A stretch of DNA of 34,153 nucleotides from Wenzhouxiangella sp. (lineage in GTDB: Bacteria > Pseudomonadota > Gammaproteobacteria > Xanthomonadales > Wenzhouxiangellaceae), in contig SLKT01000078.1 of assembly GCA_007134485.1 (NCBI GenBank), positions 1 through 34,153 of the forward strand. Reading direction: 5' to 3'. Below the pieces are notes generated by a model. That model searched no databases and was not told the origin of the DNA. It saw only the letters and a list, made by a program, of their open reading frames with translations. Position 1 is the stretch's first letter. Every line of letters starts with the position of its first letter. Positions 16,931-34,153 of this stretch are shown in pieces. A program made the position numbers and the translations under genes.

Positions 16931-18295
16931 ATGATGCCGATTCGACGGATTTTTTGTCCATTGGTTGTCGGGTTGACGCTGGTGTATGCCACTTCAGCCG
17001 GGGCCGCCCTGCCGGCCGAGGTCGATGGAAAGCCGCTGCCCTCGCTGGCTCCGATTCTGGAGGATGTCACACCGGCAGTGGTCAACGTGCATACGCGTAC
17101 CCGGGTCCAGGTCCGCAGCAGTCCGTTTTTCGATGATCCATTCTTCCGGCGTTTCTTCGATTTTCCCAGCGTGCCGCGTGAACGGGTGCAGCAATCCCTG
17201 GGTTCGGGTGTGGTCGTGGACGCCGATGCCGGTTTCATCCTGACCAACAATCATGTCATCGACGGGGCCGAAGACATTGCCGTCACCTTGAAGGACGGGC
17301 GCGAATATTCGGCCGAATTCGTCGGTTCGGATCGAGACACCGATCTGGCGGTCATCCGCATCGACGCCGACTCGTTGCATGAATTGCCCTTGTCGGATTC
17401 CGATCGACTTCGTGTCGGCGATTTCGTGGTTGCGGTCGGCAATCCATTCGGCCTGGGCCAGACGGTGACCTCCGGTATCGTCTCGGCGCTGGGTCGCTCC
17501 GGTCTGCGTGGCCTGGAATACCAGAATTTCATTCAGACCGATGCCTCGATCAACCCCGGCAACTCCGGTGGCGCGTTGATCGATCTGCGCGGTCGACTGG
17601 TGGGCATCAACACCGCGATCTTCGCCCCATCCGGCGGAAATGTCGGCATCGGATTCGCCATTCCGGCCAGTACCGCCGAGTACGTGATGGCCCAGTTGGT
17701 CGAGTATGGTGAAGTGAGGCGCGGTTCGTTCGGGGTGGAGGTGCAGGATATCGACAGTGATTTGCGTGACGCCCTGGACCTTGATGATCAGAATGGTGCC
17801 GTCATCACCCGGGTCAAGGACGGCTCGGCCCTGCATGAGGCCGGACTTCGCGCTGGCGATGTCATTGTCGGGGTCGATCAGCGCGAGGTTCGCAACAGCC
17901 GGTCATTGCGTAACATCGAGGGCCTGCTGGCCGTTGGTTCGCAGGTGCGCGTGAGCTACTTGCGTGAGGGTCGCGAGCATGAGGTCGAAGTGCGCATCGA
18001 GGAGGATCTCGATGCTCGCATCGCTGGCCATCGCCTTGATGAGCGCATGGAAGGCATGCTACTGGTCCGGATTCCGGATCGCTCGCGCATGCAAGGAGTG
18101 TTGATCGAAGAGGTTCGCCGCAACACCACAGCCTGGGAAGCCGGCCTGCGTGCCGGCGACGTTGTGGTTGCAATCAACCGCCAGGCGGTGCGCAACCTTG
18201 GCGAGTTGCGTGCCCAGTTCCCGATCTCGGAGGACCGAGAACTGGCCCTGGAAATTCGCCGTCGCGGAGTTGCCTACCTGGTCTTGCTGGATTGA
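16931..18295 (+). CDS. degQ: DegP/DegQ (HtrA) family periplasmic serine protease
   Basis: The product has 454 residues. A signal peptide (1-26, cleavage near SAGAA) is followed by a trypsin-like domain with the complete triad: H108 in TNNHVID, D138 in DTDLAVIRID and S212 in NPGNSGGAL. Two PDZ domains follow (about 255-345 and 370-454) with the usual EAGLRAGDVIVGVD and EAGLRAGDVVVAIN loops. The family degrades or refolds misfolded envelope proteins; two PDZ domains indicate the DegP/DegQ group rather than DegS. The start has an AGGA ribosome site eight bases upstream. The last 22 bases overlap the end of the convergent MASE1 gene. The choice between DegP and DegQ is not certain from sequence. 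Confidence 0.93.
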   Translation: MMPIRRIFCPLVVGLTLVYATSAGAALPAEVDGKPLPSLAPILEDVTPAVVNVHTRTRVQVRSSPFFDDPFFRRFFDFPSVPRERVQQSLGSGVVVDADAGFILTNNHVIDGAEDIAVTLKDGREYSAEFVGSDRDTDLAVIRIDADSLHELPLSDSDRLRVGDFVVAVGNPFGLGQTVTSGIVSALGRSGLRGLEYQNFIQTDASINPGNSGGALIDLRGRLVGINTAIFAPSGGNVGIGFAIPASTAEYVMAQLVEYGEVRRGSFGVEVQDIDSDLRDALDLDDQNGAVITRVKDGSALHEAGLRAGDVIVGVDQREVRNSRSLRNIEGLLAVGSQVRVSYLREGREHEVEVRIEEDLDARIAGHRLDERMEGMLLVRIPDRSRMQGVLIEEVRRNTTAWEAGLRAGDVVVAINRQAVRNLGELRAQFPISEDRELALEIRRRGVAYLVLLD

Positions 18296-20559
18296 AAATC
18301 CAATTCCCCGGGTTCCTCGAATGTTTGCAAGGGCGCCGGTCGACCAAAGTGGTAGCCTTGGGCATAGTCGATCCCGTGACTCTTGAGTATCGACACCGAC
18401 TCGGCGCTTTCCACGCCTTCGGCCACGGTCAGGATATTGCAGTCGCGGCCGATATCGGCAATGGCGCGCACAATGGCTTCGTTCATGGGGCGTTCGCTGA
18501 CCTGGCGGATGAACCGGGCGTCGATCTTGACGTAATCGACAGACAATTCGTGCAGGTGACCGAAGGAGGCCATGCCGCTGCCAAAGTCGTCCAGGGCGAT
18601 TCCGGCGCCAACTTCACGCAATTGATGTATCAGGCGTCGGGCAGCCATGTAATTGGAGATGGCTGCGGTCTCGGTGATTTCGAAGACCAGAATTTTGGCA
18701 TCGACCCGGAACGTCTGAATACTGTCGAGCAGATCGGCAACGAACTGTCGGTCGGCAATGGATATTGCCGATAGATTGATGAAGCAGCGATCGGGCGGGT
18801 TAGGGCAGGAATTCAGCCATTCGAAAGTGCGCTTGATGACCAGACGATCAATCTGCGGCATCAAGCCGGACCTCTCAGCCACGCCGATGAAGACATCCGG
18901 GAACACGATTCGGCCATCTTCGTCGAGCAATCGACACAATACCTCCAGGGCCTGACCACCCGGTGCGCCCGGGTTGAGCCTGATCAGCGACTGTCCGTGC
19001 AGCTCGATGCGCTGGTCGTCAAGTGCTGCCTGAATGAGTGGAATCTTCTGCACCTGGTTCAATCGGCGCGCGACCCGATCCGGACCCCGACTGTAAAGCA
19101 CCTGGTTGCGACCATGTTCCTTGGCGGTGATGCAGGCCGTGTCGGCGGTGCTGAGCAGGCGTCCGAAGTCTTCGGGCAGACCTTTCAGATCAGTCACACC
19201 GATGCTGGCGCGCAAGGAAAAGGAGCGCCCCGAATGGTTGTAGCGGAATGCCTGGATTTCGTCGACGATTCGCTCGATGTACTGGCGCCCCCGGCCATCC
19301 CAGGAACCCTGGACTAGTAAACCGAATTCATCGCCACCCAGGCGCGCGATGCAGTCCTCCGGACCCAGCACTTCGATCAGTTGGTTCGAAAGCTTGACCA
19401 GCAATTCATCACCGGCTGTATGTCCCAGTGAGTCGTTGACGATCTGGAACTGATCCAGGTCCAGATAGGCCAGAAGTCGCTGATCATCGTGGTCATCATC
19501 GGCCAGCCATTGACGGGCTTTCTGTTCAAAGGCTCGGCGGTTGAGCAGACCGGTGAGCGGGTCATGATCGGACTGAAAGCGCAGCCGCCGTTGCAGGAAA
19601 TAGCGTTCGCGTCTTCCGGCTTCGATCAGCAGCGAGGCGACGGTCATCACCAGTACGGCTGGCAACAGCACCAGCCATTGCATGAAAAGACTGAGGGTTT
19701 GAATGGCGCTCAGTTCCACCAGCCCGAACTTGATGGCGCTCACCGCACCCAGCGGCAGCACGGCAAATACCAGTATCGAGGGCAGTCGAAGCGCCGACCA
19801 GATCATCAGCATGAACACTGTCAGCATGACCAGTGGCAGCCATTGCAAGTCGGTCCCGCCCGGTCCCGTGATCAGGAATTCCCGAATGGGGGGTAACCAT
19901 ACGGCTATCGCCAGAATCATGAACAGGCCGGTAACCAGCATGCTTTCGAGACGGCTGGAATGCTGACGCACGGCGAGTACTCCGGAAAACCCGCACAAGA
20001 CCACTCCGGCCGACATGAACAGTGGAGCAAAGACCGCAATGCCCAGCGTATCGCCCAGCCACCAGGAGCCAATCAGTACGGTTAGTGGAAAGGACTGCCA
20101 AATGCCGGTCTGGATCACATGGACCGTGCCGAATGTTGTGGTCACGATGGCGACCAGTGGGCCGATCACCAGTAACAAGGCAGCCGTCTCCTTGACGGTC
20201 TGGGGCAAGGGCGATTTCGAGACCAGCAATCGATAGGCGATCGCGCCAATCAGCGGGCCAACGATATTGCCCACTGAAATGATGGGCATGAGTGGCAGTC
20301 CGTTGACATGCAGCGCAACCAGATCGGCGATCAGAATCACAGGAATCATCCACCAGCCGGCCAGAACGAAAGCTGCCAGTGCCAGTGCCGCCGGGGGCCA
20401 CATGGCCGCCATCGGACCGACCCCGAAAAGGTTCAGGCCGATTGTGGCCGAAGCGATGTAGAGTGAGAACACCCCCAGGGAAAACACCCACCACGGCACC
20501 CGCCCCACCGGCTCGGTGGGCCTGACTCGCGGCAACCATTCTGTTTCCCTCTTACTCAT
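18274..20559 (-). CDS. MASE1 membrane sensor with GGDEF and EAL domains
   Basis: The product has 761 residues from ATG 20559 (MSKRETEWLP). An upstream in-frame start would run deep into the neighbouring gene and is rejected. Residues 20-315 form a MASE1-type array of eight or more membrane helices (GVGPMAAMWPPAALALA is typical). The GGDEF domain (about 325-490) has the canonical ARLGGDEFGLL at 405-415, with LTGLLNRRAF before it, so cyclase activity is plausible. The EAL domain (about 500-755) carries EVL instead of EAL but keeps the catalytic Glu and the other metal and substrate residues (INLS, FEITET, DDFGSG, KID, AEGVE). It is a bifunctional c-di-GMP candidate. It lies 94 bases after the cNMP/CBS/DUF294 gene and could be the last gene of that operon. 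Confidence 0.92.
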   Translation of the reverse strand: MSKRETEWLPRVRPTEPVGRVPWWVFSLGVFSLYIASATIGLNLFGVGPMAAMWPPAALALAAFVLAGWWMIPVILIADLVALHVNGLPLMPIISVGNIVGPLIGAIAYRLLVSKSPLPQTVKETAALLLVIGPLVAIVTTTFGTVHVIQTGIWQSFPLTVLIGSWWLGDTLGIAVFAPLFMSAGVVLCGFSGVLAVRQHSSRLESMLVTGLFMILAIAVWLPPIREFLITGPGGTDLQWLPLVMLTVFMLMIWSALRLPSILVFAVLPLGAVSAIKFGLVELSAIQTLSLFMQWLVLLPAVLVMTVASLLIEAGRRERYFLQRRLRFQSDHDPLTGLLNRRAFEQKARQWLADDDHDDQRLLAYLDLDQFQIVNDSLGHTAGDELLVKLSNQLIEVLGPEDCIARLGGDEFGLLVQGSWDGRGRQYIERIVDEIQAFRYNHSGRSFSLRASIGVTDLKGLPEDFGRLLSTADTACITAKEHGRNQVLYSRGPDRVARRLNQVQKIPLIQAALDDQRIELHGQSLIRLNPGAPGGQALEVLCRLLDEDGRIVFPDVFIGVAERSGLMPQIDRLVIKRTFEWLNSCPNPPDRCFINLSAISIADRQFVADLLDSIQTFRVDAKILVFEITETAAISNYMAARRLIHQLREVGAGIALDDFGSGMASFGHLHELSVDYVKIDARFIRQVSERPMNEAIVRAIADIGRDCNILTVAEGVESAESVSILKSHGIDYAQGYHFGRPAPLQTFEEPGELDFQSSKTR

Positions 20560-20653
20560 TGAAAAACGAGCCTTCAACTGATACCCGGCGGCCTGGGATG
20601 GGATGCACCCATGACCCGGATTCAGCCAGTGTACTTCAGATTGCCGCCATGGT

Positions 20654-22465
20654 TTACAACTGGTAGCGCTGGGCCAGGGCCTTCTGGGCATCGCGCACGA
20701 TGCCGAAGGCAGAGCGCAGATAGCGTCGATGCAGGCCGGACAGTTCTTCCGGACTGACCAGGTGATCGGGTTGCCGGCCCTGCTCGTATTGCTGCACCTG
20801 GTGGCGCAGGCGCACGTTGCCGATAAAGCGCAGCGCGTGAATGAGGTCTTTGGCATCGCGTTCGTTCATCGGGCCGTCGCTGGCAGCGGCGCGTATACGC
20901 GCTTCGGTGTGGACTTCGACAATCGCGCTTTCCAGGGCGCGTACCCGGGCCAGATCGACGATCGGTAGAACCCCGCGTTTTTTCAGGTTGATGCCCTTGC
21001 CCTCGCCATCACGGTCTTCTTGCAGGAATTGGCGAAACAGGCCCACTGGCGGCGTATGGCCGATGGACTCGGCCGCCAGAAATCTCAGAAAGATGCGGCT
21101 GGTCCTGGCCTGGGCCAGCACTTTCTCCTGCATGTCCCGGGCCAGGGCCATGTTGCCGGCGATCCCGCGCTGGTCAAAGAAGATCGAGCAGTTCATCACT
21201 GACTCGGGTTCAGGCTCACCCATCCAGCGGTCGAATGTCTTCAGCCAGTCCGAAAGCGACATGCGCCACTTCTTCATGGCCATGACATCGCCCTTGCAAT
21301 AGACGTAGCCGCAAGCATCCAGGCCGTCGCAGACAAAGGTCGCAAGCTTGAGGAAATACTCGGCGTCATCACCCTCGGGGCGTTCGGCCAGCAACAGGCC
21401 GTTGTCCTGGTCGCTGATCAGTCCCTGTTCCATGCGCGCCTGCGAACCGAACGCCATCCAGCACCAGTCGAAGGGTGCATCGCCGTATTCGCGCAAGGCC
21501 AGTCCCAGCAGTCGGCGAGTGCAGGCATCGGTAATCATGCTGGCCATGCGCCCGACCTCGAACACCTGGTGGCCCTGACCGACCAGGCGGGCCAGCAGCC
21601 CCGGGCCCTGGCGGGCAAAAGCGGCGATCTGTTCAACCGTTGCCGCGCGCTGAATGTCGCGCACCAGGCGCAACGGGTGGGGAGATTCATGCCGGATCAG
21701 GTCGCCGGCGCTGATCACACCGACCAGGCGCCGGTTCTCATCAATGACCGGCAGGTGATGAATGGCCAGGCGCATCATTTCGACCACGGCATCATCAAAG
21801 CGCGTGTCACGACCCACGGTGACTGGCTCGGCGGTCATGATTTCGGCGATCGGTCGTTCCGGATCCAGTCCCTTGGCCAGGACCCTGGAGCGCAGATCGC
21901 GGTCGGTGACGATGCCGACCAGGGATTGATCATCGACCACCGGCAGGCAACTGACCCGCTCGCTCGCCATCAAGGCAGCGGCGGCGCGAATGGACAACCC
22001 GGGTGCGGCAGTGACCGGTGCGCGCAGCTCAAGATCGCGCAGGGTGCCGGTGCGTTGCACCGTCTCGGCCTGCAGGCGCTCTCCGGGGCGGCCACTCAGG
22101 AAACGCCCAAGCAGCTCGTGGGATTCGCTGGCCGCTGCCAGTGCCTTCGGCGGCAACCACAGCAACCGACACTTTTCCAACGCCTTGACCCGATAGCCAA
22201 TGACTCCATCTTCAAAGCCTATGGCATGCCCGAACAACTCGGATGACCCGCGCTGCTCCAGCGCCTGACGGTCCAGATCAAACAGTTCGACCGCACCATC
22301 GACAATCACAAACAGACCATCCCGGCCCGGCGGATCAAAAACGCCGATCTCATCATCGGCACTGGCCTCACGCACCTCGAACTCACCGGTCAGCGCTGAG
22401 CGTTGGTCAGAAGACAGCTCCGAAAACGGGGCGACATTGGCGAGGATTTCAGTAATCTCGTTCAT
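20654..22465 (-). CDS. cNMP-binding-like / twin CBS / DUF294 nucleotidyltransferase-like protein
   Basis: The product has 603 residues. A cyclic-nucleotide-binding fold (1-115) has a weak phosphate cassette, with FGH where FGE is usual. Two CBS domains follow (about 150-200 and 205-260). Then comes a DUF294 nucleotidyltransferase-like domain with GS at 340-341 and the D352-x-D354 pair in SDQDNGLLL. A helical DUF294 C-terminal domain ends the protein. Such proteins recur next to symporter-type sensor kinases and DnaQ-like exonucleases in gammaproteobacteria. Their target is unknown; GlnD-like nucleotidylation of a partner is a guess. The ATG overlaps the stop of a short open frame through the upstream repeat element (ATGA overlap at 22462-22465). 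A second DUF294 gene opens the same operon at 29348. Confidence 0.9.
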   Translation of the reverse strand: MNEITEILANVAPFSELSSDQRSALTGEFEVREASADDEIGVFDPPGRDGLFVIVDGAVELFDLDRQALEQRGSSELFGHAIGFEDGVIGYRVKALEKCRLLWLPPKALAAASESHELLGRFLSGRPGERLQAETVQRTGTLRDLELRAPVTAAPGLSIRAAAALMASERVSCLPVVDDQSLVGIVTDRDLRSRVLAKGLDPERPIAEIMTAEPVTVGRDTRFDDAVVEMMRLAIHHLPVIDENRRLVGVISAGDLIRHESPHPLRLVRDIQRAATVEQIAAFARQGPGLLARLVGQGHQVFEVGRMASMITDACTRRLLGLALREYGDAPFDWCWMAFGSQARMEQGLISDQDNGLLLAERPEGDDAEYFLKLATFVCDGLDACGYVYCKGDVMAMKKWRMSLSDWLKTFDRWMGEPEPESVMNCSIFFDQRGIAGNMALARDMQEKVLAQARTSRIFLRFLAAESIGHTPPVGLFRQFLQEDRDGEGKGINLKKRGVLPIVDLARVRALESAIVEVHTEARIRAAASDGPMNERDAKDLIHALRFIGNVRLRHQVQQYEQGRQPDHLVSPEELSGLHRRYLRSAFGIVRDAQKALAQRYQL

Positions 22466-22485
22466 TGGTTGGTTTCCGAAAAGCT

Positions 22486-22712
22486 AAAAGCGGCTCGCGC
22501 AGAGGCACACAGGCGAAATAAAAAGCAGGTCGCGCAGAGGCGCAGAGGTGCAGAGGAAAAAATCCTGCAAAACACCGAAGAAACCGAATGGGATTCAGGA
22601 AAATTTCGGTGTATTCGGTGTTTTCGGTGGTTCCCAGGTTTTGTTTTTAACATCTCATAATTGTTTTCTCTGCGTCTTTGCGCCTCTGCGCGAGATTGCT
22701 TTTTCTTTGAAG
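22486..22712. repeat. Nested inverted-repeat element (CGCAGAGG outer arms, CACCGAA inner arms)
   Basis: Almost the whole 256-base gap between two operon genes is this element. The outer left arm is present twice (about 22486-22519 and 22521-22557), built on eight-base words of the CGCAGAGG type. The outer right arm (about 22664-22712) is complementary to the second left copy over about 46 bases with few mismatches and one small indel. Inside it, AAAACACCGAA-type sequence at 22569-22588 pairs with 22605-22624 at 17 of 20 positions. I recall CGCAGAG and CACCGAA repeats of this kind from many unrelated genomes, where they generate spurious peptides such as AEAQRR; that is memory, not a search. 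On the minus strand one frame (ATG 22722 to stop 22462) is open across the entire element. Confidence 0.85.
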
Positions 22713-22721
22713 TTGCCATCA

Positions 22722-24905
22722 TCAATACTTCACCCGCGCATACCAGGTCTTGCGTGAGGCCTCCAGTGCCTCGCCCAACGTGAGGATGCCGCGGTCTTCG
22801 AGTAGCGGGATCAGTTTTAGAAAGATCTCGGCGGTCACCAGCGCATCGCCGATGGCGGTATGGCGGCCGATGATGGTCAGGCCGAAGCGTTCGGCGATGT
22901 CATCAAGATTATGGGTGTTCTGGTTTTCGTGGACCACCGCACTCAACAGCAGGGTATCGAGCACAGGGTGATCGAAAACCACTCCGCAGGCGTCCTGCTT
23001 GAGTTCCAGGCAGCGCATGTCGAAGGCGGCATTGTGGGCGACCAGCACGCTATCGGCGCAGAAGGCATGAAAGGCCGGCAATACTTTTTCGATGGCGGGT
23101 TGGCCGCGCACCATCTCATCGGTGATGCCGTGTATGGGAATACCGGCTTCGGGAATCTTTCGTTGCGGGTCGACCAGTTGGTCAAAGCTTTCGCGCTTGA
23201 GGATCTTGCCGTTGACGATGCGCACCGCGCCAATCTGGATGATCTGGTCGCCGCCGGCCGGGTTCAGGCCGGTGGTTTCGGTGTCGAATACGGTAAAGCC
23301 CAGATCGCGCAGCCTGCTGTCTTCCTGGGCGCGCGTGCGCTCGCTTGGGCGGAACAGATCGAAGTCATAGAACTCGGGTCGATCCTCGTGATGCTGGAAT
23401 GTCGAGGCTGGTTGTTCCTCCTGTGGCGTGGCCAGCGGCAGTAGCAGGCGAAAGCATCGTCGGGTCTTTTCGCCCTGGCATTCTTCCTCGATCCAGCATT
23501 CTCCGCCGTGCCGGTCGAGCACATCGCGCAGGCTCATGACCATGGTTTCGCCGCCACTGATGATGGGCTCGTTTTCCCAGCTCAGATCGGGCTTTTCGCC
23601 GGACTCTTCGGAAATCGGCCAGACCAGGTCGAGCCGGGCGCGTCCCTCGTGGGTTGACAATCGCAGGGTCAGATTCTTGATTCCGCACTCCTGGCTCAGT
23701 TTTCCGGCCAGGTGGGTCAGCGCCTGCAACAGCGAATAGCTTTCCAGCCGCAGCCAGATCGGCTCTTCGTCGGCCTCCCGTATGACATGAATTCCGGACT
23801 CCGTTTCGATGCGTCCGATGGCGACCTCGATCAGATCGCCGCCCAGCATGTCTTCCAGCGGCCAGCGCGAACGCCAGGCGGCTGACGAGGACTGGCGCAA
23901 CTCGTCCAGACGTCGGCTCAAGCCCTGGATCTCCTCGCGAACGACACCCAGCAGGCGCTCGCGCATGGCCTCATCGATATCGGCGTCCTCGAGAATCTCG
24001 ACCGCGGCCCGGGTATTGGCCAGGGCCGAGCGGCTGCCTTCGGTCAAGTCTTTGAGCAATCGATCCTTTTCAGCATCAGCCTGCATTTCGTTGGTGATGT
24101 TTTCGATCAACAGCACGAACCCGTTCAGGTTCGTGGTGCTTTCCCCGGATTCCGGGTCCACGCCACGCACCGGGCTCATCTGTATGCGCAACAGCCTGCC
24201 CGACGCGGTGGCGGTGACGAACTGGGCCGATGGACTGGCTGCACCCCGGGCCAGGCGACGCTGGACATTTTCGACCGCATGCGCGACCAGTTGGCGATCC
24301 AGTACGGTGTAGATCGAGCGACCCAGCCCGATCAGCTCGCTGCCGCCGGTTACCTGGGCGGCCTGTGACAGGCGCTTGAACTGCAATCGGGCACGCTGAT
24401 TGTAGAGCAGGATGCGGCCGTCGAGGTTGCACACCACCACGCTGCGGTCCAGCTCCGACATCAGCGCGGCCAGTCGATTTTTCTCCAGTTCGGTCTGGCG
24501 ACTGGCCTGGCGAATACGCTCATCCATTTCCGAGCGCAACTGATCGTGGCGCTTGAGCAATTCATTGATCGGCTCGGTCAGTTGCTCCATTTCGCGACTG
24601 CCCTGAATATTCAACGGTTGGCTGACCTCGCCATCGGTGCGTAGACGAATGTCTTCGGCCAGCCGGGCCGGAGCGCGCACATACAGATCAATCAGGTAAC
24701 GCAGTGCCGCACTGATTGGCAACAGTGAGAATGCCCACAGCATGACCAGCAACCCGGCCCGGTTGCCCAGCGCCTCGGTCAGGGCCGACCAGTTCTGTTC
24801 GGGCAGTACCGCCCAAAGCATGAGTGCTGCGATGAACAACCAGGCCAGGCCGGCCAGCCCGACCACGGCCGTCCCGATCAGCAATCGCCACTCCAGCCGC
24901 CGCAT
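22722..24905 (-). CDS. Membrane PAS / pseudo-histidine-kinase fused to a DEDDh 3'-5' exonuclease domain
   Basis: The product has 727 residues. Two membrane helices (about 6-34 and 50-76) precede a HAMP-like linker, a PAS domain (about 140-275) and a region shaped like a histidine kinase (about 278-490). The phosphoacceptor His is replaced: DLTEGSRSALANTRAA stands where DVSHELRTPL is expected, putting E289 at the His position. The ATP-binding boxes are also eroded, although the DVLDRHGGECWIEEE segment is recognisable. Residues 530-727 are a DnaQ-like exonuclease with all DEDDh residues: D541 and E543 in FDTETTGL, D629 in HNAAFDM, and H682 and D687 in HTAIGDA. It starts two bases after the receiver gene, so expression is coupled. 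It is probably an exonuclease whose activity or location is set by the membrane sensor. Free-standing exonucleases occupy the equivalent place in related loci. Confidence 0.9.
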   Translation of the reverse strand: MRRLEWRLLIGTAVVGLAGLAWLFIAALMLWAVLPEQNWSALTEALGNRAGLLVMLWAFSLLPISAALRYLIDLYVRAPARLAEDIRLRTDGEVSQPLNIQGSREMEQLTEPINELLKRHDQLRSEMDERIRQASRQTELEKNRLAALMSELDRSVVVCNLDGRILLYNQRARLQFKRLSQAAQVTGGSELIGLGRSIYTVLDRQLVAHAVENVQRRLARGAASPSAQFVTATASGRLLRIQMSPVRGVDPESGESTTNLNGFVLLIENITNEMQADAEKDRLLKDLTEGSRSALANTRAAVEILEDADIDEAMRERLLGVVREEIQGLSRRLDELRQSSSAAWRSRWPLEDMLGGDLIEVAIGRIETESGIHVIREADEEPIWLRLESYSLLQALTHLAGKLSQECGIKNLTLRLSTHEGRARLDLVWPISEESGEKPDLSWENEPIISGGETMVMSLRDVLDRHGGECWIEEECQGEKTRRCFRLLLPLATPQEEQPASTFQHHEDRPEFYDFDLFRPSERTRAQEDSRLRDLGFTVFDTETTGLNPAGGDQIIQIGAVRIVNGKILKRESFDQLVDPQRKIPEAGIPIHGITDEMVRGQPAIEKVLPAFHAFCADSVLVAHNAAFDMRCLELKQDACGVVFDHPVLDTLLLSAVVHENQNTHNLDDIAERFGLTIIGRHTAIGDALVTAEIFLKLIPLLEDRGILTLGEALEASRKTWYARVKY

Positions 24906-25292: not shown

Positions 25293-25371
25293 TCTCGCAG
25301 AGACGCAGGGATGCAGAGGGAAAGCAATAAAATCTCATTTCTTTTCTCCGCGTCTCTGCGTCTCTGCGAGA
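25293..25371. repeat. Hairpin element of CGCAGAGA words between kinase and receiver genes
   Basis: The left arm (25293-25318) and right arm (25346-25371) are inverted copies matching at 23 of 26 positions, with a 27-base loop. Both arms are tandem eight-base words of the CGCAGAGA/TCTCTGCG type, the same family as the 22486-22712 element. The right arm is translated: it encodes the last dozen or so residues of the symporter-type kinase ([12 protein letters not shown]). Insertion has therefore replaced the original kinase C-terminus, or the kinase reads into it. Confidence 0.87.
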
Positions 25372-28097
25372 ACATTTCTTTCTTTCCGCGGCAGAAAGAA
25401 CCCGAACGTCGCCCCCCGGCCGGGTTCGGATTCGACCCACATCCGCCCGCCGAAATGCTCGATGATCTGCCGGCTGATCGGCAGGCCCAGGCCGGTGCCC
25501 TGGTGTTGCTGGTCGCCGACCTGGCGGAACTTGTCGAAGACCTGGGCCTGTTCGGCCGGCGCGATGCCGACGCCGTTGTCACTGACCGTCACGGTCACGC
25601 CATCGGGCTGGTCGCTGATGGTCACTACCACCCGGCCATTGTCTTCGGGCAGGTACTTCAGGGCATTGGACAACAGATTCAGCATGACTTGCACCAGCCG
25701 GTCGGCATCGGCGCGCAAACTCCTGACCTGGTGGGGTCCCTGGATCTCCAGGCGCGCGGATTTTTCGTCGTAGCGGGCCTTGATGCTGTCCGCGGCCTGG
25801 CGAACAATGACGGCCAGGTCGACATCCGAGTTATGCCACTCGGCATGGCCGGCCTCGATCCGGGCCAGGTCCAGCACCTGTCCGACCAGCCGGCTCAGGC
25901 GCTCGCTCTCTGAAACCATGATGTCGAGAAACTCGCGCCGTTGATCGGCCGGCATGTCCTCGTCATCGCGCATCATTTCGGTCAGCGCCCGGATCGAGGT
26001 CAGCGGGGTGCGCAGCTCGTGGGTGACCGAGGACATGAAATCGTCTTTCAGGCGATCCAGGCTCTTCAATTGTTCGTTGGCGGCCTTGAGTTCCTCGGTG
26101 GCCTGTTCCAGCGAGCGGGATTTCTCTTCCAGCGCCCTGGAGTAGGCGCGCAGTTGCGAGGCCTCCTCGAGAATGCGCACGACATCATCCAGCTCCAGTG
26201 TTTCTTCTTCGACTGCCGAGGCCACCATCACTCGTGCAGAAGCCGAACCAATCGCACCGGCCAGTTGCGTTTCCACCCGCTGGACCAGGCGGGCATCGGC
26301 CGGCATGTTGGCCACCGAATCCACACCGATGGCGTGCGCATGCTCCTCGAACAGGCGATCGGCGGACCGTGCGCCAAGAAAGCGCTCGGTCAGATCCTTT
26401 AGATCCTCGACCCGCGCCCGGCCCTGCCAGAATACCGGTTCGTGTCCACCACGCCGATCGAATACATCGACGAACAATTGCGCCTGGCTGGCCTCGCGCG
26501 CCGTGGGCCGGGTCAACAGCGAAATGGCGACAAAGGCGGCGATATTGCCGAACAGGCTCCAGAACAGCGAATGGGTGAGCGGGTCCAGGCCGCTCAGGCC
26601 GAGGAAGGATTCGGGCTTGAGCCAGGCCAGCCCGGCCGGGCCGTAATCGAGAAAGTCGGTGGCCATCCAGCCCGACTTGGCAATCGAGGGCAGCATCAGG
26701 GTATAAACCCAGAATCCGAAACCGACCAGCAATCCGGCCAAGACACCGGCGCGAGTGGCGCCTTTCCAGTACATCCCGCCGAGCGCGGCCGGGGCAAACT
26801 GGGCCACGGCGGCAAAGCTGATCAGGCCGATCGAGACCAGCGCATAAGCCTCGCCGGCCAGGTAGAAATACAGGTAACCGAGCAACAACAGCCCGACGAT
26901 GGCCAGGCGGCGAATGGTTTTCAGCAGTCGGGTCAGATCACCGCCGGAGCGGCCGCCGAATCGTTTGGTCTTGAGCAGGGCCGGCATGACCAGGTCATTG
27001 CAGATCATGGTCGAAACGGCAATGGATTCGACGATGACCATGCCGGTGGCCGCACTCAAGCCGCCGATGAACACGAACAGCGCCAGCACCATGGCGCCCT
27101 CGGCCAGCGGCAATGAGAGTACGAACAGGTCCGGGTTGGCTTGCCCCGCACCGAAGTAGATCAGCCCGCCAATGGCGATCGGCAGCACAAAAAGGTTGAT
27201 CAGGAACAGATACAGCGGAAATACCCAGGCGGCGCGCTTCAAATGTCGCTCGTCGACATTTTCGACCACCATGACCTGGAACTGGCGCGGCAGGAACAGG
27301 ATCGACAGCATCGCCAGCAGCACCAGGGCGAACCACTGCGAATAGATGAACTGGCTGGCGCCATGGTCGAACCGCAGCAGTTGGGCCAACCCTTCGTCGG
27401 CCATGGCCCGGCCGAACAGATCGCCCAGGCCGTCGAACAGCCAGTAGGTCACGAACAAACCAACGGCCAGAAATGCGATCAGCTTGACAATGGACTCGAA
27501 GGCAATGGCTGCGACCATGCCCTCGTGGCGTTCGGTCATGTCCAGGTGGCGGGTGCCGAACAGAATGATGAATCCGGCCAGGGCGAGGGCCAGGTAGAGT
27601 GTGGAATCCTGCCACCAGGGTCGGGTGACACTCGGTAACTCGGTCCCGGCCGGCGTGGTCAGCAAGGCATAACCGGACGAGATGGCTTTCAGTTGCAGGG
27701 CGATGTAAGGCACGATGCCGACCACAGTGATCAGGGTGACCAGTCCGGCAATCAGAGGGCTCTTGCCATAGCGGCTGGCGATGAAGTCGGCCACCGAGGT
27801 GATGCGGTAGGTTTTGGCGATACGCACCATCTTGCGAATCACCACCCAGGCCAGGATCATCGCCAGCATGGGTCCAAGATAGATGGGCAGAAACCACACC
27901 CCTTCCACCGAGGCGCGGCCGACGCTGCCGAAATAGGTCCAGGCGGTGCAGTAAACCGCGATCGACAGAGCATACACCCACGGACTGGAAATGATGGAGC
28001 GACCTGCGGCCGCGCGCTTGTCGCCCCACCAGGCAATCGCGAACAACAGCGCCAGGTAGGCGAAGGAGATGGCGATGACCAGACCGACCGACATCAT
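25335..28097 (-). CDS. Sodium/solute symporter-like sensor histidine kinase (CbrA/CrbS type)
   Basis: The product has up to 920 residues. The N-terminal ~500 residues are an SSSF (SLC5) transporter-like domain of about 13 helices (for example [20 protein letters not shown] and [20 protein letters not shown]). A STAC-like linker follows ([20 protein letters not shown]), then a coiled coil, a HisKA domain with the phosphoacceptor H693 in [11 protein letters not shown], and a complete HATPase ([26 protein letters not shown]). Relatives CbrA and CrbS link carbon-source, histidine or acetate sensing to gene control. No periplasmic PAS domain is seen. The start is ATG-ATG (28097 or 28094), one base after the stop of the small membrane gene. 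The last ~13 residues come from a repeat arm and are not expected to be conserved. Confidence 0.93.
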
Positions 28098-28098
28098 G

Positions 28099-28293
28099 TC
28101 AGTGTTCCCTTCGTTCCATCAGCCAGGCCAGCACGACAATCAGTAGCGCCCAGCACGCGAACAACCCGGCCGGAAACAGCGGCAGGCCGAACACGACCAG
28201 GTCGCGATCCCACAGCGACAGCAACGGAAAGCTGAACAGCAGCCAGCCCAGGCAGAAAAGGGCGATCAGTCGGGCCGGACGCCGGCGCTTCAT
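28099..28293 (-). CDS. Small two-helix membrane protein upstream of the symporter-type kinase (CbrX-like position)
   Basis: The product has 64 residues from ATG 28293 (MKRRRPARLIALF). A basic N-terminus and two hydrophobic helices (about 9-27 and 33-58) end in a charged tail (MERREH). The start overlaps the stop of the upstream DUF294 gene in an ATGA arrangement. The stop is one base from the kinase ATG, so all three are translationally coupled. Small genes in this position are known before cbrA in Pseudomonas (cbrX), and small partner subunits accompany some SSSF transporters. Homology to either is not established here. It may assist folding or gating of the kinase's transporter domain. Confidence 0.82.
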   Translation of the reverse strand: MKRRRPARLIALFCLGWLLFSFPLLSLWDRDLVVFGLPLFPAGLFACWALLIVVLAWLMERREH

Positions 28294-29348
28294 TGAAAGG
28301 CCTCGGCGCGAAACTGCCGGATCAAGGCCTGCTGGCAAGCGGCAATCTGTTGAAATGAATGCTGGAGGGCCGTTTCATCCTGTTCGGTCAGCTCTTCACG
28401 GATGATTCGGTAATCCGGCTGTTGACCGGCACGAACCTGGCGCGCTTGGTGGGCGATGCGCAGTCGGCTTGCGGTTACAAAGGCATTCTCCAGGTCCTCG
28501 AAGCGCTCGCTGTCGGCCGGGTGATGAGTTTTCAGTGCCTGGAGACGAGCCAGTGTGCCAACCTCGTCCAGGCCCGCGGCCAGGCTCCAGGCCCGGGCCA
28601 GGTCAACCACGGGGGTGATGGCGTGCTTTTTCAGATTGATACGGGCCTGTCCCTGTTCATTGCTCTTGAAGCGCAGGCGACCGAACCAGCTCAAGGCCGG
28701 CCGGAAATGCAGGGCTGCCGCGGCCAGGTGGGCCTGGAACAGCGGGCTTGTGCGGGTCCGGGCCAGGAAGTCACGGCGCAGCGCATCGACCAGGCCGGCA
28801 TCGCCATGAATGGCGCGCAGATCGAAGAATATGCACAGGCGCACCAGGGCTCCGGGCTCGGGCTGCTCGATCCAGCGCTGGAAATCGTCTTGCCAGGCGG
28901 TCAGAGTCATCCGCCAGCGCGGATTGCTCGCCATGATGTCGCCTGGACACAAGCGATAACCACACTTATCTAGCTGACGGCAGACCTGGTCGGACAGCCG
29001 GGAGAAATAATCACCATGCCGGTCTTCACGATATTCATCGGACAGCACCAGCGCATTGTCCTGGTCCGAGCCAAGGATCTGCTCACCGCGGGCCAGCGAA
29101 CCGGCAACGGCAAAGGCGTAGGGAATGGGCGGCTCACCCAGCTCGAGCTCGGCCAGCTGCAGCAGCCGCACCGCAATTCGCTCCCCGGAGGTGCTGATGG
29201 CGTCGACAATGTCCAGCGCGCTCTGTCCGGCATCTTCCAGTTCGGCCAGCAGTGCCGGCAGGGTTCGGGCACAGGCAGAAACCGCCTCGGCCTGTTCGGC
29301 TTCGTCAATCGAGCGCAGCAGGGCCCGGGCTTTCCGGCTCGCCATCAT
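28290..29348 (-). CDS. DUF294 nucleotidyltransferase-like protein without regulatory domains
   Basis: The product has 352 residues. After a helical N-terminus (1-70) comes a nucleotidyltransferase-like domain with the GS motif (G83, S84) and the D95-x-D97 pair in SDQDNALVLSDE. A DUF294 C-terminal helical domain follows (about 180-345; INLKKHAITPVVDLARAW). It is a shorter paralogue of the 603-residue protein at 20654-22465, sharing the motif order (for example the INLKK/GINLKK segment and the PRWRMTL/KWRMSL segment) but lacking the cNMP and CBS parts. It is first in the operon and overlaps the next gene by four bases. The start is ATG 29348 or 29345; no strong ribosome site is visible. Substrate and partner are unknown. 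Confidence 0.88.
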   Translation of the reverse strand: MMASRKARALLRSIDEAEQAEAVSACARTLPALLAELEDAGQSALDIVDAISTSGERIAVRLLQLAELELGEPPIPYAFAVAGSLARGEQILGSDQDNALVLSDEYREDRHGDYFSRLSDQVCRQLDKCGYRLCPGDIMASNPRWRMTLTAWQDDFQRWIEQPEPGALVRLCIFFDLRAIHGDAGLVDALRRDFLARTRTSPLFQAHLAAAALHFRPALSWFGRLRFKSNEQGQARINLKKHAITPVVDLARAWSLAAGLDEVGTLARLQALKTHHPADSERFEDLENAFVTASRLRIAHQARQVRAGQQPDYRIIREELTEQDETALQHSFQQIAACQQALIRQFRAEAFQ

Positions 29349-30139: not shown

Positions 30140-31792
30140 TCAGAACATCCCGCTGATCACACCATCCTCGTCGACATCGACATTCAATGCATTGGGGTGG
30201 GCCGGCAGGCCGGGCATCAGCATCATGTTGCCGCATACCGGGATCAGGAAACCGGCCCCGGCCGACAGGCGCATGTCGGTGACCGTCAACGTCCAGCCGG
30301 TGGGGGCGCCCAGCAGGTTGGGCTTGTCGCTCAGTGAGCTCTGGGTCTTGGCGATACAGACCGGCAAATGGCCAAAGCCAAGGCGCTTGAAGCGCTCCAG
30401 GGCAATGCGCGCGCGGTTTTCGAAGTAGATGTCATTGGCGCCGTAGATCCGGCGGGCGATGCGTTCGATTTTCTCCTCCGGGCCCATGTCTTGATCGTAG
30501 AGCGGAGTGATGGTCGAGAGTTGATCGGCTGCGCAGCGAACGGCTTCGGCCAGGGCGGCCGCGCCTTTGCCGCCTTCGGCATGCCCGCTATGGACTTCGC
30601 ACGCCACGCCGCGTTCGCCACACCAGGCCTTGAGCCAGTTGATCTCGGTATCGCCGTCGTTGTCGAAACGGTTGATGGCCACCACCACATTGGCACCAAA
30701 GGCCTTCAGGTTGTCGATGTGGCGGGCCAGGTTGATGGTGCCGGCCTCCAGGGCGTCGAGGTTTTCGCGCGTGATGTCTTCGGCCGTGGATCCACCGTGC
30801 CACTTGAGCGCCCGCAAGGTGGCGACAAGCACGACCGCGTCCGGCGTCAGTCCGGTGGCCGGCGAGACGATATCGAAGAACTTCTCGGCGCCCAGGTCGG
30901 CCCCGAAACCGGCTTCAGTGACCACGTAATCGGCGAACTTCAGCGCCAGGCGATTGGCGATGACACTGCTGGTGCCATGGGCGATATTGCCGAAAGGGCC
31001 GGTATGGACCAGCGCCGGGACATGCTCACTGGTCTGGACCAGGTTGGGCATGATCGCTTCATTGAGCACCGCGGTCAGTGCATTGGCGACATCCAGATCG
31101 CCGGCATGGATCGGCTCATCCCTGCGAGTAAAGCCTACGATGATGTTGCCCAGGCGTTGCTTGAGATCGCGGCGTGATTCGGCCAGCGCCAGAATGGCCA
31201 TGATTTCCGAGGCGGCGGTAATGATGAAGTTGCACTCGCGCGGGATGCCGTTTGGATGGCCGCCCAGTCCGATAACGACATTGCGCAGCGATCGTTCATT
31301 CATGTCGACCGTGCGGTTCCAGACCGGGCGGGTCAGGTCGATGCCGAGCTTGTTGCCGTGGTGGAGATGGTTGTCGACCAGGGCGGCGAGCAGGTTGTGG
31401 GCGCTGGTGATCGCGTGCAGGTCACCGTTGAAGTGCAGATTGATGCGCGCCATCGGTTGCAGTTGTGATTGGCCGGCGCCGGTGGCCCCTCCTTTCATGC
31501 CGAATACCGGGCCCAGCGAGGGCTCACGCAAGGTGACCATCGGGCGCGCGCCGATTGCGCGCAAACCCTGACCCAGCGCAATACTGGTCAGGGTCTTGCC
31601 TTCACCGGCCCGGGTCGGTGTGATGGCGGTGACCAGGATCAGCTTGCCGTCGGGTTGATTACGGCGATTGTGTAGTGCATTGAGTCGAAGCTTGCCGGTG
31701 TACTTGCCGTAGAACTCGAACTCGTCCTCGGCCAGGTCCATTTCGGCCATGAAATGGCGCATGTGTTTCATCTGCGCTTGGTCTGTGGTCAT
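30140..31792 (-). CDS. fhs: Formate-tetrahydrofolate ligase
   Basis: This enzyme joins formate to tetrahydrofolate with ATP, giving 10-formyl-THF for purine synthesis, formyl-Met or one-carbon recycling. It has 550 residues, close to the usual ~556. The P-loop-like ATP motif ITPTRAGEGKTLTS (57-70), the TLREPSLGPVFGMKGGATGAG segment, DLTRPVWNRTVDMN and the C-terminal VDVDEDGVISGMF are all typical. The start ATG 31792 has a strong GGGAGAG ribosome site; a longer upstream start is rejected. It complements the metF branch of folate metabolism elsewhere in the window. I looked for a ZTP (pfl) riboswitch in its leader and saw none. Confidence 0.96.
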   Translation of the reverse strand: MTTDQAQMKHMRHFMAEMDLAEDEFEFYGKYTGKLRLNALHNRRNQPDGKLILVTAITPTRAGEGKTLTSIALGQGLRAIGARPMVTLREPSLGPVFGMKGGATGAGQSQLQPMARINLHFNGDLHAITSAHNLLAALVDNHLHHGNKLGIDLTRPVWNRTVDMNERSLRNVVIGLGGHPNGIPRECNFIITAASEIMAILALAESRRDLKQRLGNIIVGFTRRDEPIHAGDLDVANALTAVLNEAIMPNLVQTSEHVPALVHTGPFGNIAHGTSSVIANRLALKFADYVVTEAGFGADLGAEKFFDIVSPATGLTPDAVVLVATLRALKWHGGSTAEDITRENLDALEAGTINLARHIDNLKAFGANVVVAINRFDNDGDTEINWLKAWCGERGVACEVHSGHAEGGKGAAALAEAVRCAADQLSTITPLYDQDMGPEEKIERIARRIYGANDIYFENRARIALERFKRLGFGHLPVCIAKTQSSLSDKPNLLGAPTGWTLTVTDMRLSAGAGFLIPVCGNMMLMPGLPAHPNALNVDVDEDGVISGMF

Positions 31793-31809
31793 TATTCTCT
31801 CCCTTGAAA

Positions 31810-31834
31810 GCCGACTCAGTTTGTATCGGTCGGC
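31810..31834 (-). promoter_or_regulatory. Short inverted repeat in the fhs leader
   Basis: GCCGAC (31810-31815) and GTCGGC (31829-31834) form a perfect six-base inverted repeat with a 13-base loop, ending about 18 bases before the fhs start codon and just upstream of its ribosome site. It could be a small operator or leader hairpin. The remaining divergent region (31835-31943) shows no convincing promoter. Confidence 0.3.
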
Positions 31835-31943
31835 GACAGAACTCAAGTGCAAAAGGACGGTCACCATGGAGTTGCTTCGATCGACCATGACAACAGGACC
31901 CGATATGATGTACGCCTTGTTTCATGCGCTCGTGACCTGACTG

Positions 31944-34153
31944 ATGTTTTCCGCCACCCTGATCATCCTGGTATCGCTGGCCTACGTGGGTCTGCTGTTC
32001 CTGGTGGCCTGGTGGGGAGACCGGCGTGCCGAGCGCGGTCAATCGATATTCAACCAGCCATTGATCTACTCGCTGTCGCTGGCGGTCTATTGCACGTCCT
32101 GGACCTTCTATGGGGCCGTCGGTCAGGCGGCGACCAGTGGTTGGGATTTCCTGCCCGTCTACCTGGGCCCGATCCTGGTTTTTGCCGTATTCGGCGGCTT
32201 CATCCTGCGTATCGTCCGGGTCAGCAAGGAGCAGAACATCACCTCGATTTCGGACTTTCTCGCGTCGCGTTTCGGCAAGACCCAGAAGCTGGCGGTACTG
32301 GTCACCGTGGTTGCAGTGCTGGGTGTGTTGCCGTACATCGCTTTGCAACTGAAGGGCATTGCCATGGGCTTTACCCTGCTGACCGCCGACCCGACCACCG
32401 GCATACTGTTGCCCGAAGAGCCTGGGCCGGTCTGGCATGATACGGCCTTGCTGGTGGCCTTGCTGTTGGCCGCCTTCACCATACTGTTCGGGACCCGTCA
32501 ACTCGATGCCACCGAACATCATCCCGGGCTGATGCTGGCGGTGGCCTTCGAGTCACTGGTCAAGCTGCTGGCCTTTCTGGCGGTTGGGGTATTCGTTACC
32601 TGGTTTTTGTTCGACGGACTGGACACGGTGCTGCCTCACGCGATTGACGATGACGCGATTGCGGCCATGTTCGCCCCGGACAATCTCCGCCTGAGCTTTT
32701 TCACCATTCTGCTGTTGTCCATGCTGGCGATTTTCTGCCTGCCGCGGCAGTTTCACGTGGCCGTGGTCGAAAGCACCAGTGAGCGCGAGGTTCATGTCGC
32801 GCGCTGGCTGTTTCCGGTCTACCTGGTGCTGATCAGCCTTTTTATAGTTCCGGTGGCGGTCGCCGGTCTGTTGACCTTCGATGCCTCGGTCGAGGCCGAC
32901 ACATTCATGCTGGCCCTGCCAATGTTTGCCGATCAGCAGGGGTTGACCCTTCTGGCCATGCTGGGCGGCTTTTCAGCCGCCACCGGCATGGTCATCGTCG
33001 CGGCCGTGGCGCTTTCGATCATGGTTTCCAATGACATCGTCATGCCGGCGCTTCTGAGGAGTCGATTGGTTGATGCCGGCGCCGGCGGTGACCTGGGGCG
33101 TCTGCTGCTGATGGTCCGGCGCTGTGTCATCGTCTTGTTGCTGCTGCTGGCCTGGGCTTATTACCGCCTGTTCGCCTATGACGAAAGCCTGGCCGGTATC
33201 GGGCTGTTGTCATTTGCTGCGGTCGCCCAGTTCGCGCCGTTGGTGGTCGCAGCCATATTCTGGCGCGGGGGCAACCGCAATGGCGCCATGCTGGGGCTGG
33301 GCCTGGGATTTGGCGTGTGGTCTTATTGCTTGTTGTTGCCGGTGATTCTGCGCGCCAGCGGCGCCGGCGAAGCTTTTCTTGACGCCGGGCCACTGGGTAT
33401 CGAAGTCTTGCGGCCCGAAGCACTGTTCGGATGGTCATTTTCCGATTCCCTGAGTCACGGTGTTTTCTGGTCACTGACATTCAATGTGCTGGGTCTGATC
33501 GTGGGTTCACGGTTTGGCGCAGCCCGACCGATTGACCGTATCCAGGCCAATGCGTTTGTGGGAGCCGCCAGTGGCATGGGCACCGATTCCCTGCCGCGCA
33601 GCGGGATCGCCACGGTCGGGGATTTCATTCAGCTCACGGCCCGTTTTCTTGGTGAGCGTCGAACTCGACAGTTCTTCAGTGATTTCGTCAAGCAGCGGGA
33701 TGGAGAGCTGGTCGAGTCGCAACCGGCCGATGCCGAACTGGTGCGCTATACGGAGCGCGTGTTGTCCGGGGTGATCGGTGCCAGTTCGGCGCGGCTGGTG
33801 TTGTACTCGGCATTGGCCGGAAGCGGAATGAAATTCGACGAGGTCGTCAGTCTGCTGGACCAGACCTCGCAGAAGCTCAAGTTTCGCCAGGAATTGCTGC
33901 AATCGGCCATGGAAAATCTGTCCGAGGGCGTCAGCGTGGTCGATGGGGAGCTCAGGCTGGTGGCCTGGAACAAGAGCTATCTGGACATGTTCGACTATCC
34001 CGACGGACTGATTCACGTTGGTCGACCGATTCGCGATGTGCTGGAGTTCAATGCCCGGCGCGGCCGGCTGGGCGAGGGCGATGTCGCCGAGCTGGTTGAG
34101 CGGCGCATCGATTGGCTCAGGAAACGCAGCCCGCATTTCTATGAAAGAGTCCA
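31944..34153 (+). CDS. Second sodium/solute symporter-like sensor kinase (SSSF-STAC-PAS), C-terminus beyond window edge
   Basis: The frame is open from ATG 31944 to the right edge (736 codons visible), so the kinase part is missing. A TGA two codons upstream fixes ATG as the first standard start. Residues 1-520 are an SSSF transporter-like domain parallel to the kinase at 25335 ([39 protein letters not shown]). A STAC domain follows near 555-585 (GDFIQLTARFLGERRTRQFF), then a short coiled coil and a PAS domain of the PAS_7 kind from about residue 650 (LLQSAMENLSEGVSVVDGEL and LVAWNKSYLDMFDYP). In this family a HisKA/HATPase, often with a receiver, comes next. This layout is closest to CrbS-like sensors. 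It is divergent from fhs. Confidence 0.9.
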   Translation, partial: MFSATLIILVSLAYVGLLFLVAWWGDRRAERGQSIFNQPLIYSLSLAVYCTSWTFYGAVGQAATSGWDFLPVYLGPILVFAVFGGFILRIVRVSKEQNITSISDFLASRFGKTQKLAVLVTVVAVLGVLPYIALQLKGIAMGFTLLTADPTTGILLPEEPGPVWHDTALLVALLLAAFTILFGTRQLDATEHHPGLMLAVAFESLVKLLAFLAVGVFVTWFLFDGLDTVLPHAIDDDAIAAMFAPDNLRLSFFTILLLSMLAIFCLPRQFHVAVVESTSEREVHVARWLFPVYLVLISLFIVPVAVAGLLTFDASVEADTFMLALPMFADQQGLTLLAMLGGFSAATGMVIVAAVALSIMVSNDIVMPALLRSRLVDAGAGGDLGRLLLMVRRCVIVLLLLLAWAYYRLFAYDESLAGIGLLSFAAVAQFAPLVVAAIFWRGGNRNGAMLGLGLGFGVWSYCLLLPVILRASGAGEAFLDAGPLGIEVLRPEALFGWSFSDSLSHGVFWSLTFNVLGLIVGSRFGAARPIDRIQANAFVGAASGMGTDSLPRSGIATVGDFIQLTARFLGERRTRQFFSDFVKQRDGELVESQPADAELVRYTERVLSGVIGASSARLVLYSALAGSGMKFDEVVSLLDQTSQKLKFRQELLQSAMENLSEGVSVVDGELRLVAWNKSYLDMFDYPDGLIHVGRPIRDVLEFNARRGRLGEGDVAELVERRIDWLRKRSPHFYERV

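Follow-up and report, generated by a model that had tools for sequence, protein, structure and literature searches.

The gene described here codes for a membrane histidine kinase that has lost its kinase residues and is fused to a DEDDh exonuclease whose active-site residues are intact. On balance we favour a two-component system whose output is a nuclease and in which the pseudokinase reads a free receiver, but this rests on no binding data and no model of the complex. The dead kinase most likely reads the receiver, because its hairpin is complete wherever the receiver gene is present, and mostly cut or lost where it is not. The window, that is, the whole stretch of DNA analysed, is 34,153 nucleotides long and comes from Wenzhouxiangella sp. 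On its minus strand, positions 22722-24905 are an open reading frame of 727 aa, and the plus strand there is full of stops. The first-pass annotation had proposed the pseudokinase/DEDDh fusion at this place; the fusion held, and the strand was corrected to minus. A frameshift or pseudogene reading was rejected, as the frame is open and conserved across hundreds of genomes. The features are listed in Table 1.

Table 1. Features of the fusion gene and of its neighbours in the window; residue numbers refer to the 727-aa protein.
Feature	Position	Strand	Basis
Pseudo-histidine kinase / DEDDh exonuclease gene, membrane, 727 aa	22722..24905	-	ORF, domain search, conservation, model
N-terminal membrane hairpin	24690..24902	-	helices from residues 2 and 36 (model secondary structure)
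PAS-like domain, residues ~145-270	24096..24473	-	sub-threshold PAS_4, alpha/beta pattern in model, strong conservation
Helical hairpin, DHp-like, residues 271-339; putative docking site of the receiver	23889..24095	-	model, fold matches, co-retention with receiver gene
Glu289 codon, phosphoacceptor His position	24039..24041	-	His in none of 162 homologues
CA (HATPase)-like fold lacking the ATP-binding boxes, residues 350-492	23430..23858	-	model, fold matches, column counts
Conserved linker (RPEF)YDFDLF, residues 507-518	23352..23387	-	homologue alignment
DEDDh exonuclease domain, residues 537-704	22794..23297	-	Pfam, profile searches, column counts
Single-domain response regulator, 118 aa	24908..25264	-	Pfam, ORF position, alignment
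Symporter-type (SSS/SLC5-like, CrbS/CbrA-like) membrane sensor histidine kinase	25335..28097	-	Pfam, alignment, locus tblastn
Small two-helix membrane protein (HYP81 family)	28099..28293	-	apparent 4 bp overlap with DUF294 stop codon
Short DUF294 nucleotidyltransferase-like protein	28290..29348	-	Pfam
cNMP-like/CBS/DUF294 protein	20654..22465	-	Pfam; domain-level relative of CBS protein PP_0354 (PMC9927547)

How is the protein built? Its N-terminal part had been read as a sensor kinase with two helices, a HAMP-like linker, a PAS domain and HisKA-like and HATPase-like parts. The helices, the PAS-like domain and the HisKA/HATPase folds held. The HAMP-like linker remains unproven, because no HAMP domain of the protein was detected by Pfam. 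The hydropathy peaks of the membrane hairpin lie at residues 6-36 and 49-72. The PAS_4 match is below the Pfam threshold (E 0.044) and is supported by the predicted structure, in which a PAS-like alpha/beta segment is visible; this region is among the best-conserved parts of the protein, with C159, N160 and G163 invariant. Ahead of the exonuclease lies a linker in which Y513 is kept in 203/222 homologues, and D514 and F515 in 220/222 each. Since much of the linker is kept in every form of the protein, it may help to restrain the exonuclease. A minimal form was also observed, a 287-aa frame (locus L263) with one membrane helix, the RPEFYD linker and the DEDDh exonuclease, from which PAS and pseudokinase are gone.

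The kinase region is invisible to single-sequence searches of Pfam and NCBIfam, and only the family profile and the structure reveal it. A profile of residues 262-498 from 76 homologues matches solved histidine kinases. The best is the CovS/VicK-like 4i5s, matched over the whole region (E 5e-7; E 2e-14 with the full profile), with the family Glu aligned to the kinase His. The AlphaFold2 model of the region (mean pLDDT 84) has a DHp hairpin and a CA fold; its matches include HK853:RR468 and DivL in Foldseek (E about 1e-10), and kinase CA domains in VIA-align (Z 13-14, rmsd 2.4 A over 127 residues). Thus residues ~270-495 are shown by profile and fold match, and predicted by the model, to be a histidine-kinase fold with a DHp hairpin and a Bergerat-type CA domain. 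Structural matches over the whole region have a high rmsd, about 7-15 A, possibly because hairpin and CA domain are hinged differently here.

Is it still a kinase? At the phosphoacceptor position, 162 homologues with full DHp carry Glu (113), Asp (33), Ala (5), Pro (5), Gln (2), Thr (2), Gly (1) or Met (1), and never His. By homologue column counts, no N, G1 or G2 box is conserved as such, and DNGxG and GxGLGL are absent. At the level of sequence the protein therefore fails as an active histidine kinase, and the earlier claims of Glu289 in place of His and of eroded ATP boxes both held. When the pseudokinase profile was searched against the genome of the window, the sole other match was the sensor kinase of the operon (E 0.003), whose profile aligns with it at an hhalign probability of 98. 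The similarity suggests, without proving it, that the pseudokinase derives from that kinase.

The exonuclease domain, in contrast to the kinase region, was found by single-sequence Pfam search (PF00929, residues 539-695, E 1.4e-37). D541, E543, D629, H682 and D687, the D, E, D, H and D of motifs Exo I-III, are identical in 222/222 homologues, as had been claimed for the single protein. Fold and motifs thus place the domain in the DEDDh (DnaQ-like) 3'-5' family, while two-metal activity is inferred from sequence alone. The invariance indicates that the nuclease is under selection. Its nearest solved relatives are the exonucleases of PolC type (2p1j), Pol III epsilon and DinG, with PolC the nearest (E 9e-46 in profile search). 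This relatedness leaves undecided whether DNA or RNA is the substrate, because DinG of Listeria is reported to act on rRNA (PMC12774634). The domain also resembles CRISPR-associated and candidate defence DEDDh models; a defence role was set aside, as the gene context is metabolic.

The first-pass annotation had called for a structure comparison of residues 275-490 with HisKA/HATPase, and had named two outcomes that would refute it: homologues with a conserved phosphoacceptor His and an intact ATP site, or an exonuclease without conserved metal ligands. The comparison, run on the kinase region, matched histidine-kinase folds, and in the homologue alignment the His is always lost and DEDDh always kept, so neither outcome was met.

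There is a further question of what surrounds the gene. The receiver gene ends two bases before the exonuclease ATG, as already noted in the earlier reading, and its phosphoacceptor Asp55 and Lys105 are kept in 86/86. The sensor kinase of the operon keeps HELRTPL together with the N, G1 and G2 boxes. It has a multi-helix N-terminus of about 540 aa followed by HisKA/HATPase; the Pfam symporter model was not matched, and the symporter label rests on architecture. Mapping by tblastn of the window proteins against fetched homologue loci showed a recurrent block of DUF294 or CBS-DUF294, small two-helix protein, symporter-type kinase, receiver and exonuclease, often accompanied by an acetate-type symporter plus its small partner. 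This wider module, which hints at the signal, was absent from the earlier reading. Annotated examples are found in Paracoccus denitrificans, P. yeei and Marivivens, the P. yeei row being acs, DUF485, acetate symporter, DUF294, receiver, exonuclease. Of 94 loci with a length of 9 kb or more, 76 have the receiver upstream of the exonuclease and 63 contain the symporter-type kinase, which never occurs without the receiver. The kinase is upstream, downstream or absent depending on lineage, and the receiver-exonuclease adjacency persists.

Some other observations on the locus may be recorded. The two-helix protein, conserved and of about 64 aa, sits between DUF294 and the symporter-type kinase and precedes the kinase in about 46 loci; it resembles the small symporter partners DUF485/DUF4212, as if the sensor had retained the small subunit of a transporter. 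In kinase-less receiver-exonuclease operons, a membrane-type protein of about 163 aa and unknown family (HYP163) takes the place of the symporter-type kinase beside the receiver (L104:8003-8491, L144, L145, L094), and it is also found in receiver-less operons. A MASE1-GGDEF-EAL protein (window 18274-20856, minus strand) comes after the CBS-DUF294 gene with overlapping frames, and its membership of the operon is not established. A second symporter-type sensor kinase (31944-33929, plus strand), 45% identical to the operon kinase over residues 1-669, is divergent from a formate-tetrahydrofolate ligase gene and apparently truncated by the contig end; a 287-aa minus-strand ORF overlying it (31659-32522) is probably spurious. 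Palindromic repeats on CTCTGCGTCTCTGCG, with arms of 26-34 nt and an inner AACACCGAA-type palindrome, occupy two gaps of the operon (22494-22694 and 25293-25371), and one of them overlaps the 3' end of the kinase gene. The core of the CTCTGCGTCTCTGCG repeat has 15 exact copies in the genome, against 9 for a reversed control pattern. An ORF at 22462-22725 was rejected as a gene because it is repeat-derived. Consensus promoter scans gave no match above chance.

Might the pseudokinase target the sensor kinase itself, by heterodimer or sequestration as RetS does on GacS, with the nuclease as a by-function? In favour of this, the operon's own kinase is the most similar to the pseudokinase among the kinases of the genome, and the RetS-GacS complex (7n0e) is among the fold matches. 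However, the full hairpin stays with the receiver where no symporter-type kinase is linked (13/94 loci, among them L104, L144 and L145; also P. yeei), and the invariant DEDDh residues indicate selection on the nuclease. We regard this alternative as very unlikely.

Does the dead kinase depend on the receiver? The idea of co-loss arose from a handful of alphaproteobacterial loci and was then tested on newly added genomes. Of the 148 proteins with an upstream receiver gene, all have a complete hairpin and none a truncated one. Where the receiver gene is absent (n=74), the hairpin is truncated or absent in 60 and complete in 14, and 11 hairpin-cut proteins still keep the CA domain. The hairpin is thus lost before the CA domain, the order of decay expected if it is the docking site of the receiver. 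Arg292, at His+3, is found in 145/148 proteins with the receiver, 10/14 receiver-less proteins with full hairpin and 2/11 with cut hairpin. As many of the counted loci share ancestry, phylogenetically independent pairs were used, on 121 alphaproteobacterial and related sequences with hairpin cut-offs of 45 to 62 positions. Over these cut-offs, on average 6.1-8.4 of the 10 pairs differing in the receiver were concordant and 0-0.5 opposed (median p 0.016-0.03); lowering the cut-off to 30 raised the median p to 0.06-0.13. The CA domain tracks the receiver less tightly (4/10 independent pairs). On a tree of the exonuclease domain only, there were too few supported events (3/3 concordant, p 0.25), and one alphaproteobacterial family alone, before further genomes were added, gave up to 5/5 concordant (p about 0.06).

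One limitation of the co-loss test should be noted, that the truncation events are few and mostly alphaproteobacterial, and the p values are modest and dependent on the cut-off. Because the cut-off was varied after the data had been seen, and the first loci had prompted the idea, the co-loss is support and not proof. What is more, the 14 receiver-less homologues with a full hairpin count against the docking reading, though their receiver may sit elsewhere in the genome.

Two further alternatives bear on the same counts. One is that the pseudokinase only anchors a housekeeping exonuclease and serves as its dimerisation scaffold; the receiver would act elsewhere, and the genes would merely be co-expressed. 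For it speak the Rhodobacteraceae-like proteins of about 470-500 aa, which lack hairpin and CA domain and keep membrane helices, linker and exonuclease, so the exonuclease can be retained without the pseudokinase. Against it, the hairpin is cut or lost solely where the receiver is missing, and Arg292 is retained along with the receiver; we consider the scaffold unlikely. The other is that the PAS domain senses a ligand and gates the nuclease, with the hairpin merely relaying and the receiver fine-tuning. The strong conservation of the PAS region, with its three invariant residues, is in accordance with this. But it leaves unexplained why the hairpin is cut only in the absence of the receiver while PAS and CA are kept, and we consider it very unlikely.

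Then how might the receiver-reading pseudokinase work? The symporter-type sensor kinase would respond to a small substrate, probably a monocarboxylate such as acetate or pyruvate, by autophosphorylating; the signal is inferred. It would then phosphorylate the single-domain receiver, the dependence on phosphorylation again being inferred. The receiver would dock on the DHp hairpin, so that the former kinase would now be its receptor, as DivL is for DivK~P. By way of the dimer and the YDFDL linker, this docking may reach the membrane DEDDh exonuclease and alter the activity of the nuclease or its access to substrate; the sign of control and the choice of DNA or RNA are likewise inferred. The regulatory idea of the first-pass annotation gains independent support from the co-loss as to the receiver, and control of the nuclease by a membrane signal is still an inference. 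A bolder reading, for which we see as much to doubt as to believe, is that of a widespread two-component class in which free receiver~P binds a kinase-turned-receptor and switches an exonuclease tethered to the membrane; monocarboxylate use would then be controlled post-transcriptionally, or at the DNA level, without a transcription factor. If true, no more than one phosphotransfer step would lie between a nutrient sensor at the cell surface and its effect on RNA or DNA ends at the membrane.

The family is not confined to the window. Homologues on Wenzhouxiangella contigs are 65-66% identical, and most genomes of the genus carry the gene. It is common, occurring in 53/398 sampled Pseudomonadota genomes (E 1e-45) and in 89/199 genomes of one alphaproteobacterial family, and it is present in Paracoccus denitrificans PD1222, which is amenable to laboratory work; no full-length copies were found in phage records. 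In public records the protein bears only the label 'exonuclease domain-containing protein' or 'DNA polymerase III subunit epsilon'. Full-text search, with most subscription journals outside its scope, returned no relevant publication on the pseudokinase-exonuclease architecture. Receiver-sensing pseudokinases (DivL) and acetate symporter-kinases (CrbS) are known, and the coupling of a pseudokinase to a nuclease is likely undescribed in the literature searched. To our knowledge there is no characterised two-component system with a nuclease as its direct output, and no such paper was found either.

How does the protein compare with known systems? With the DnaQ/PolC-type DEDDh exonucleases (2p1j, Pol III epsilon, DinG exonuclease, ExoX) it has the catalytic fold and all five active-site residues in common, but the gene here has no polymerase or helicase partner, and a membrane pseudokinase is fused instead. 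DivL of Caulobacter crescentus, described as a transmitter converted into a receiver sensor, likewise has PAS and a DHp-CA fold with the phosphoacceptor His replaced (PMC4211667). It is among the top fold matches, the ligand presumed here is likewise a single-domain receiver, and Arg at His+3 is conserved in both; Arg553 (Tyr550+3), the equivalent of Arg292, is required for DivK binding (PMC4211667). Since the same Arg is the R of HExR in active kinases, it marks receiver docking generally and not kinship with DivL. In DivL, Tyr stands at the His site, the N/G1/G2 boxes are kept and the target of modulation is the kinase CckA, while the pseudokinase here has mostly Glu/Asp at that site, has lost the ATP boxes and has the fused exonuclease as output. 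Without the Tyr and the intact boxes, it is not a DivL orthologue. It does have the features of a DivL-type pseudokinase, namely the replaced His, the DHp fold and the dock-site Arg, receiver binding being inferred from co-loss and not from binding data. It would be the second likely case, after DivL, of a kinase converted to a receiver sensor.

The CrbS/CrbR (MxtR/ErdR) acetate system, with its target operon pp_0354/pp_0353 (PMC9927547, PMC8402216, PMC5715377), shares the symporter-type sensor kinase, assigned here by architecture, the CBS protein, an RNase_T-type exonuclease and the acetate/pyruvate context. In Pseudomonas putida, pp_0353, a putative RNase_T exonuclease, shares an operon with pp_0354, a CBS gene to whose promoter ErdR binds (PMC8402216, PMC9927547). 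Loss of pp_0353 delays growth on pyruvate, which speaks for the proposed system, and leaves growth on acetate normal, which speaks against it; the authors speculate on mRNA degradation (PMC9927547). By analogy, an active symporter-type kinase may cause the module to trim, at the membrane, transcripts for monocarboxylate metabolism; this is an inference, and orthology to pp_0353 is not established. In CrbS/CrbR, promoters are the targets of the response regulator, and the exonuclease is reported merely as an RNase_T-family protein, whereas here the 118-aa receiver lacks a DNA-binding domain and a membrane pseudokinase is fused to the exonuclease. The present module may bear on the puzzling pyruvate phenotype of the short P. 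putida exonuclease.
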